Source of the DNA: Nanobdellota archaeon
Lineage (GTDB): Archaea; Nanobdellota; Nanobdellia; Parvarchaeales; Parvarchaeaceae
Direction of reading: 5' to 3'
Assembly: GCA_021818905.1 (NCBI GenBank)
Contig: JAKASS010000006.1
Location: 1-51,065, forward strand
Length of the DNA: 51,065 bases
The notes under the pieces were generated by a model. The model saw only the letters and a program-made list of their open reading frames with translations. It was not told the DNA's origin and searched no databases. Shown here one piece after another: positions 1-1,369 of this stretch. A program made the translations under genes and the position numbers. Position 1 is the stretch's first letter, and every line of letters starts with the position of its first letter.

Positions 1-54
1 GCCCAATACGATGGACGCAAATCTTTTATAGTAAGGACTCCCATTTTTATTCAT
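1..54 (-). CDS. Probable transposase, N-terminal 18 residues only (partial)
   Basis: Minus-strand frame starting with ATG at 54 and open to the window edge, reading MNKNGSPYYKRFASIVLG. A good Shine-Dalgarno sequence (GAGGTG, complement of 58-63) lies four to five bases upstream of the start. It sits just inside a terminal inverted repeat, so a transposase is the natural reading, but the fragment is too short to show a domain. It could be a different IS-encoded protein. Confidence 0.45.
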   Translation of the reverse strand, partial: MNKNGSPYYKRFASIVLG

Positions 55-103
55 AAGCACCTCTTTTTTTGTTTATTTCTTATAATAATTAAAGAGGTGC
101 TTA
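54..103 (-). promoter_or_regulatory. Inverted repeat masking the IS gene's ribosome binding site
   Basis: Perfect 13-bp inverted repeat: taagcacctcttt at 54-66 and aaagaggtgctta at 91-103, with a 24-base AT-rich loop. In a minus-strand transcript that enters from outside the IS, the upstream arm would pair with the arm containing GAGGTG and the first base of the ATG, hiding the start site. Known ISs (IS10, IS50, IS200) use such fold-back leaders to block expression from outside promoters. A transcript starting inside the loop would lack the upstream arm and be translatable. The structure is seen; the function is inferred. Confidence 0.6.
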
Positions 104-109
104 CTTTAG

Positions 110-126
110 AGGATTTCTACAGAGCC
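110..126. repeat. 17-bp terminal inverted repeat, left copy
   Basis: aggatttctacagagcc here is the exact reverse complement of 50939-50955. It marks the outer boundary of the left-edge IS. The flanking bases differ between the two ends of the window, so the repeat is exactly 17 bp as far as these two ends show. Confidence 0.75.
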
Positions 127-148
127 GAGTTCTTAGAAATAAACTTAT

Positions 149-808
149 ATGGAAGAGGCAAGCGAAATGTGCGGGGACCTTCATAACCTGTTTAACAAGA
201 TGGATAGGTTTGACTACCGGTTCGATAAAAGTAAAATCCCAGAAAACGGAATCTATATCGTGTTTGAAAAGGGCGAGACCGCTCATGGAGTCGATAGGAT
301 AGTAAGGGTAGGGACTCACACAGGAGAAAATCAGTTAAAATCACGACTTTCTCAGCATCTTACAAAGGAGAACAAGGACAGGAGCATCTTTAGGAAAAAC
401 ATAGGCCGAGCCATACTCAACAAAGAAAAAAGTCCTTTCATTTTAGAACAGTGGAACATAGACTTAACTACACTCAAGGCAAGAGAAAAATTCAAAGGAA
501 GGATAAACCAAGAGATGATAAAACAAATAGAACATAAGGTAACCAGATACATGCAGGAAAATTTAAGCTTTGCAGTTTTTGAGGTTAAACAAAAAGAGGA
601 TAGATTGTTTCTAGAGTCGAAAATAATCGCTACGGTTTCACTGTGCAGAAAAAATGAACCGTCTAGAGGATGGCTCGGGTTGAATTCTCCCGAACCAAAA
701 ATACGTAAAAGTGGCCTCTGGCTAGTAAATGAACTGTACAAAGAGCCCCTCAGCGCGGCAGATCTTGAGGAATTGAAGCGGCTAACGACCCATTATTATA
801 AACATTAA
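149..808 (+). CDS. GIY-YIG-like nuclease family protein
   Basis: 219 residues. The N-terminal half carries a GIY-YIG-like core: NGIYIVFE (about residues 33-40) as the first strand, then RIVRVGTH in place of the usual YIG segment, then an arginine-rich helix (RSIFRKNIGRAIL). A possible catalytic glutamate sits in LFLESKI around residue 155. The C-terminal part (WLGLNSP...SGLWLVNEL) looks like the conserved tail of the same family. Cellular role is not known; such folds cut DNA or RNA. A second ATG at 167 is an alternative start. The gene begins only 23 bp after the IS boundary, so its native promoter may have been replaced or separated by the insertion. Confidence 0.6.
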   Translation: MEEASEMCGDLHNLFNKMDRFDYRFDKSKIPENGIYIVFEKGETAHGVDRIVRVGTHTGENQLKSRLSQHLTKENKDRSIFRKNIGRAILNKEKSPFILEQWNIDLTTLKAREKFKGRINQEMIKQIEHKVTRYMQENLSFAVFEVKQKEDRLFLESKIIATVSLCRKNEPSRGWLGLNSPEPKIRKSGLWLVNELYKEPLSAADLEELKRLTTHYYKH

Positions 809-820
809 TTGAAACAACCT

Positions 821-828
821 TTTAATTA
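821..828 (+). promoter_or_regulatory. TATA-like element of tRNA-Ser
   Basis: tttaatta preceded by aacaacc, centred about 31 bp before the tRNA 5' end, the distance expected for an archaeal TATA box when transcription starts a few bases upstream of the mature tRNA. Confidence 0.45.
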
Positions 829-855
829 TTAGTTGCATAATAAAGAGATGCGATT

Positions 856-937
856 GTTGGGGTGACCGAGCGGTAAGGTGCACGCCTGCTAAGCGTGTTG
901 GCGAAAGCCTTGATGGGTTCAACCCCCATCCCCAACG
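856..937 (+). tRNA. tRNA-Ser (GCT)
   Basis: Acceptor strands GTTGGGG (856-862) and CCCCAAC (930-936) pair fully and leave G937 as discriminator. The anticodon loop reads CTGCTAA, giving anticodon GCT for AGC/AGT serine codons. A long variable arm (TTGGCGAAAGCCTTGA region) and a T arm GATGGGTTCAACCCCCATC fit a class II tRNA. No intron and no encoded CCA. Confidence 0.93.
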
Positions 938-1000
938 GTTTTAACTTATAAATACGGAAAAGATTCTTAATAAAGAATCAATATTTATCTAGCCCACCCA

Positions 1001-1369
1001 ATGAGAGACCGATTAGAAATCTAGAGGCGGGAAAAAGAGATAGAAAAGCGATTAGAAATAGAGCTTGTAAACCCGTCTTATAGTGCAGCCGAAATAGGCA
1101 ATATAAAACAGGTAGACTCGGGAGAAAAAGGAGTTTACGATCCATCATTTGATAGCTCTGAGATAGTCGAAGGCGACCTAGAACTGATCAGGAATGCAGA
1201 CGGGATGGTCGCAATAATAACGAAGAACACATCTATAGGGACAAATATGGAAATATTCTTCGATTCTTACGTCTTAAAAAGGCAGACAAAATATACAAAA
1301 ATAGAAAAGAATTCGCCGAGAAGTTTCTTGATAAGGACGACGGGTAGAAATGTGTTTAAAAGTATATAA
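1001..1369 (+). pseudogene. Nucleoside 2-deoxyribosyltransferase-like gene, broken by an in-frame TAG
   Basis: From ATG 1001 the frame reads MRDRLEI, then TAG (1022-1024), then stays open to TAA 1367-1369. The downstream part begins RREKEIEKRLEIEL, continues through VNPSYSAAEIG, and has DLELIRNADGMVAIITK followed by SIGTNMEIFFDSYVL. This resembles the C-terminal half of the nucleoside 2-deoxyribosyltransferase-like family, where an acidic ADGMVA strand and a S-I-G-T-x-x-E-I motif form the active-site side. The N-terminal strand that normally starts the fold is missing, and the tail (SFLIRTTGRNVFKSI) also looks degraded. Most likely a decayed nucleotide-salvage gene. Confidence 0.6.

Follow-up and report, generated by a model that had tools for sequence, protein, structure and literature searches.

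How an archaeal insertion sequence (IS) might keep its transposase from being translated off transcripts that enter from outside is the question raised by the left end of the window, a 51,065-nt stretch of a Nanobdellota archaeon (Parvarchaeaceae; contig JAKASS010000006.1). Here an inverted repeat lies directly on a transposase start. Control of this kind is known from IS10 and IS50, bacterial elements of the IS4 family, in which RNA that reads through from outside folds so that the ribosome site and start of the transposase gene are masked. The native RNA of these elements starts inside or past the upstream arm, and IS10 additionally uses antisense RNA and Dam control. An earlier note on this DNA had ascribed the fold-back logic of IS10, IS50 and IS200 to the leader, a proposal supported by sequence comparison with other copies of the element and with relatives whose arms are unrelated and pair nonetheless.

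The element and its family

The start of the window falls inside an IS: the contig begins within the element, so only the first 126 bp are present. This segment (positions 1–126, minus strand) is the left, transposase-proximal part of a 967-bp IS5-family element, its limit being set by copies that align up to position 126. Full copies measure 966–967 bp, and the window's first 126 bases recur about 24 times, whole or in part, in the 945-kb genome. The terminal inverted repeat, GGCTCTGTAGAAATCC, occupies 16 bp at 111–126 (minus strand), and the identical 16 bp are found inverted at the opposite end of full copies; terminal inverted repeats are a trait of IS5 elements. Six full copies (L009, L011, L014, L018, L019 and L023) are flanked by 9-bp target duplications, from which GAGTTCTTA at 127–135 is the expected duplication adjoining this end, the partner side lying off the contig. 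The transposase gene is cut by the contig end after its first 18 codons (1–54, minus strand; N-terminus matched at C20:1-54:-), and both the copies and the N-terminal match place its ATG at 52–54 (minus strand).

The transposase of the full copy L009 scores 177.7 bits against NF033579 (transpos_IS5_2), for which the curated cut-off is 140, and 40.1 against DDE_Tnp_1 (cut-off 23). The element is an IS5-family IS (NF033579), sharing with that family the transposase, the 16-bp inverted ends and the 9-bp target duplication. To our knowledge, leader control is not part of the description of this family. Descent from IS10 and the IS4 family was considered and rejected, the best family being IS5_2 and not that of IS4 transposases; the element may work like the IS10 control, yet it is no relative of IS10.

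In nine full copies (L009, L011, L012, L014, L016, L018, L019, L023 and L024), no stop codon of the transposase lies within the element. The frame crosses the right terminal repeat and ends 17–215 nt into target DNA, so that each copy receives its own C-terminal tail. At the opposite end of the contig (50939–51065), a further copy of this IS contributes its right end, which is without the start-pairing arm. With an IS right end there and an IS left end at 1–126, the assembly evidently broke at IS copies on both sides. No relatives were found in viral contigs, and a DNA-level search of plasmids found none either. Rfam matching of window positions 1–1200 returned only a tRNA and a sub-threshold microRNA model, and no leader or riboregulator model.

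An inverted repeat at the transposase start

Positions 54–66 (TAAGCACCTCTTT) and 91–103 (AAAGAGGTGCTTA) are perfectly complementary over 13 bp around a 24-nt loop, and a G.U pair between 104 and 53 lengthens the stem to 14. On the transposase strand (minus), the upstream arm at 91–103 reads 5'-UAAGCACCUCUUU-3' in RNA and sits 7 bp inside the 16-bp terminal repeat. The downstream arm at 54–66, 5'-AAAGAGGUGCUUA-3', contains a Shine–Dalgarno (SD)-like GAGGUG (GAGGTG in the DNA) and the A of AUG, both buried in the pairing, which the U joins by wobble. This SD-like sequence is complementary to the CACCTCC that the host 16S rRNA retains at its 3' end. Between the arms lies an AT-rich loop with a predicted promoter (67–90, minus strand). 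As in a fold-back IS, the inverted repeat joins the ribosome site and start codon to a stretch near the outer end of the element. The earlier description, of a perfect 13-bp repeat pairing the ribosome binding site and first start-codon base with sequence just inside the terminal repeat around an AT-rich loop, is exact.

Host-genome scans, which cover 451 kb of the 945-kb genome, show how rare this arrangement is. Within these 451 kb, the only inverted repeats that are perfect over 13 bp or more and have a loop of 3–40 nt belong to five copies of this element. At the transposase start the stem score is 31.5, whereas 414 other gene starts average 12.4 and do not exceed 27; pairing of the start region reaches 0.91, and at the 414 other starts it averages 0.50 and peaks at 0.89. 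That an RNA started outside, and carrying both arms, would fold agrees with computation: the folded read-through RNA has a z of -3.4, with none of 200 shuffles equally stable, and the RNA without the upstream arm (z -0.6) is not unusually stable relative to shuffles.

As a separate matter, a reading of the hairpin as a terminator is unsupported, no U-run following it on the transposase strand.

Predicted promoter and transcript start

Gene starts of the host indicate where its transcripts are likely to begin. SD sequences precede only 20 of the 225 genes that have an upstream gap, and host genes show a sharp TATA-like peak 26–30 nt before the ATG; on these two grounds, most host mRNAs are probably leaderless. 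Across 418 genes of the host (G000), an SD of at least 5 nt was observed at 32 starts.

TATA position weights, a crude model trained on 225 genes of this one host, point to a TATA-like ATTATAAG at -32 from the ATG (79–86, minus strand), within the loop. A variant group of copies described below (group B) has TATATAAA at -30, the host consensus word at its usual place. A free TATA motif search in 26 upstream regions yielded no clear motif. With the loop box near -30 in a leaderless host, the native mRNA probably begins at or near the ATG and would contain neither arm. Alternatively, transcription would begin inside the loop if driven by a weaker TATA-like CCTCTAAA at -58 (105–112, minus strand; score 3.4), which sits on the terminal-repeat edge. 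Both predicted starts lie 3' of the upstream arm, so that a native mRNA from either would escape masking. The earlier note had placed the start within the AT-rich loop, with loss of the upstream arm. Absence of that arm from the predicted mRNA holds, whereas the best-placed box moves the predicted start to the ATG.

Taken with the comparisons below, the leader is probably a fold-back control of the IS10/IS50 type that blocks translation of the transposase from outside transcripts. Read-through RNA entering from outside would carry both arms, and their pairing in the cell would make both the start codon and the SD-like sequence inaccessible, with reduced translation and transposition as the expected outcome. 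The element's own promoter, or at least its own start site, would lie 3' of the upstream arm; a native mRNA without this arm, most likely beginning at the ATG in a leaderless host, would have an open start. Some points count against fold-back control. A leaderless native mRNA would have no use for the downstream arm's SD and would give no reason for its being kept; the SD may serve SD-led translation when this mobile family occupies other hosts. In addition, a protein-bound DNA palindrome would share several of the same features.

Copies within the genome and other transposases of the host

Twenty copies with a readable leader were compared, and the SD core stays paired in all of them. The window's arms are present in 11 copies. 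Three others, forming group B (L021, L023 and L025), carry AACTACCTCC and GGAGGTAGTT as arms, which are altered on both sides at three pairs and still perfectly complementary. Four copies (L016, L024, L026 and L027) have one mismatch in 13. The remaining two (L019 and L022) are hybrids, each with its upstream arm from one group and its downstream arm from the other, and have 2–3 mismatches. The L019 hybrid carries a clean 9-bp target duplication, so that it is probably a genuine hybrid that has transposed and not a product of misassembly; arm hybrids can apparently transpose. A lack of arm conservation among copies had been named beforehand as an outcome that would refute control by folding, and in this comparison the arms are kept paired.

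Compensatory change of the arms within this genome is suggestive. The covariation does not beat column shuffles (72 of 500 reach it), and the close kinship of the copies makes it count as one or two events only. The right end does not vary with the arms between copy groups. A transposase end-binding motif was considered as an explanation of the arms and rejected, as the right end stays unchanged when they change.

When 414 host starts were ranked by stem strength with copies of the element excluded, a ranking that did not select for transposases, the top position fell to another IS5-type transposase (L181:7469-8422), whose element ends differ from those of the window's element. At this gene a AATGCCTCC / GGAGGCATT repeat covers the SD and adjoins the ATG. 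Its start region resembles that of group B, so this transposase and the window's element may not be wholly independent cases. The start region AAACAAAAAAGGAGG...TTATGGATAAA is 85% shared between L181:7364-7480 and the group B copies, in elements with different ends, which suggests that the start region was exchanged between elements and the upstream arm adjusted. Three more distant DDE transposases (L188, L181:6304-7281 and L195) showed no clear start masking in a quick fold, and the feature is therefore not universal for ISs of this host.

Relatives across archaea

Leaders of related elements extend the comparison beyond this genome. A 47%-identical element from the same genus (G020) has the same ends and a different leader, in which CCTCCTT pairs with AAGGAGG and TAG pairs with CTA at the ATG. 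Among 58 distinct leaders, taken from loci of a species-genome collection and a phylum search, pairing at -12 to +3 averages 0.67 compared with 0.52 in shuffles, and no mean of a shuffle replicate exceeds 0.561. Start pairing of host genes, at an average of 0.50, is likewise below that of the IS leaders. Strong stems are commonest at the ATG (38%, versus about 9% inside the gene). A Woesearchaeal element (L105) has a 15-bp stem ending in ATG, and further relatives with start-pairing leaders come from Methanosarcina (L072), Nanoarchaeota (L099) and Diapherotrites (L119). In 11 of the 58 relatives, whose start codons are uncertain, the predicted fold masks the start with few pairs or none. Relatives differ in the sequence of the arms, in the length of the loop (about 7 to 30 nt) and in how far the pairing lies from the tip, and the paired arm still lies on the ATG and/or the SD. 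These leaders support the view that pairing over the start is maintained despite unrelated arm sequences.

The placement of promoters in relatives bears on whether the native mRNA would contain the hairpin. In 35 of 47 start-masking relatives transcription is predicted to begin 3' of the upstream arm, compared with 28.6 in permutations (0 of 1000 as high), and across relatives the position of the TATA box correlates with that of the arm in the direction that fold-back predicts. Across 46 elements, start pairing drops from 0.68 to 0.50 once the upstream arm is taken away (Wilcoxon p 4e-8), an effect that is partly built in, since the arm was chosen for its pairing with the start. In 12 of the 47, the best TATA-like box puts the start inside or upstream of the arm. 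Such leaders favor a different reading, in which transcription from the terminal repeat or the flank retains the hairpin in the native mRNA as a brake, either constitutive or regulated, that a helper RNA, an Sm-type protein or temperature would open. The ISPpu9 leader offers a precedent (PMC8450116), and SmAP1 binds transposase mRNAs in Halobacterium (PMC10134880). For the present element a brake of this kind is distinctly unlikely, given that the host-calibrated TATA position sets the start at the ATG and that the correlation of TATA and arm positions across relatives fits fold-back.

Covariation in Micrarchaeal elements

Nine related Micrarchaeal elements have two tandem hairpins, the second of which contains the ATG in its 3' arm. 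Covariation of this start-codon helix was scored on the seven Micrarchaeal elements that align without gaps. Four of the nine pairs are changed on both sides, and 95% of cells are paired. The covariation score is reached by 0 of 500 shuffles and lies far above all slid-partner controls, so that these relatives show the compensatory change expected of a fold-back IS. The loop of the second hairpin, ATTTGGCG, hardly varies. A TATA-like GGATTTTAACC lies within the first hairpin, which covaries too; this box would start transcription in or near the second loop. Promoter-like letters are conserved in the loops, and the arms are conserved only as complements. The covarying TATA-enclosing hairpin was seen in L068, L069, L071, L120, L209, L210, L216 and L217, upstream of the predicted start, from which position it is predicted to be absent from native RNA.

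These comparisons also bear on chance, that is, on a functionless complementarity merely spread by transposition. Since the copies in the genome all go back to a single element, their number alone is no evidence against it, and the covariation within the genome fails to beat shuffles. The explanation is nevertheless highly improbable: in 451 kb only IS copies hold such repeats, and both the pairing and the covariation recur in independent elements whose arms differ.

The main rival holds that the palindrome acts as DNA, as an operator at which the transposase or a host dimer represses the promoter between the arms, RNA folding being incidental. In its favor, the arms flank the predicted promoter, and the first Micrarchaeal helix encloses its TATA-like box upstream of the predicted start, where it would be missing from native RNA. 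The operator reading is weakened, since the repeat keeps its place at the ATG and its arms can change in sequence freely. Specifically, the paired arm tracks the ATG and SD even though arm sequence, loop length and tip distance differ; the arms diverge freely around conserved loops, whereas a protein-binding site in the arms would give the opposite pattern; no matching variation of the motif is seen at the right end; and G-U pairs are present in the helices. On this evidence an operator is unlikely, and fold-back control remains the preferred reading.

Relation to known systems and significance

The likeness to IS10 and IS50 is that read-through RNA would fold over the start and that the native RNA, as predicted here, lacks the full upstream arm. 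Those elements are bacterial, SD-led and members of another IS family, whereas the present one is archaeal, with a TATA-like box within or near the loop and a native mRNA predicted to be leaderless. IS200 has a translational hairpin that is present in its own mRNA. As with IS200, a stem-loop covers the ribosome site, and the Micrarchaeal relatives likewise have two tandem hairpins; the transposases are unrelated, and the hairpin described here has no terminator-like U-run on the gene strand. In the IS200 tnpA leader, one of two stem-loops is described as terminating impinging transcripts and the other as occluding the ribosome site (PMC3196728).

Other bacterial elements offer partial parallels. 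In Amoebophilus asiaticus, hairpins were predicted in the first 50 bp of several ISs (reported as data not shown) and were suggested to control expression; the set includes ISs assigned to the IS5 family (PMC3196728). Unlike the elements compared here, those are bacterial, and neither covariation nor promoter placement was part of the case. In ISPpu9, leader structure in the 5'-UTR likewise masks the ribosome site of the transposase, but it is present in the native mRNA and is opened by antisense RNA, the RNAs involved being Asr9 and Ssr9 (PMC8450116). In Halobacterium, transposase mRNAs can be abundant with their proteins undetected, for which an Sm-type protein and antisense RNAs were proposed as the cause (PMC10134880).

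A search of the open literature found bacterial hairpin control and SmAP1 or antisense silencing of archaeal transposases, and no archaeal fold-back leader. The view that such control is not well described for archaeal ISs agrees with this result, and an archaeal fold-back leader has apparently not been described before.

The best account of the leader, as judged from sequence comparison, is IS10/IS50 logic in another IS family, fitted to archaeal promoters and leaderless translation. Whether this extends to archaeal IS5_2 elements as a group is an evenly balanced question. These elements would then carry a lock fitted to archaeal starts, with the promoter in the loops and a leaderless or very short-leader native mRNA, so that only foreign transcripts are locked; the arms would vary freely and yet stay paired to the start codon in DPANN hosts, methanogens and other archaea. 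If the fold-back reading is true, an element-borne lock would be a simpler and general cause of silent archaeal transposase mRNAs, and the bacterial answer to read-through transcription would also exist in archaeal elements, adapted to leaderless translation.
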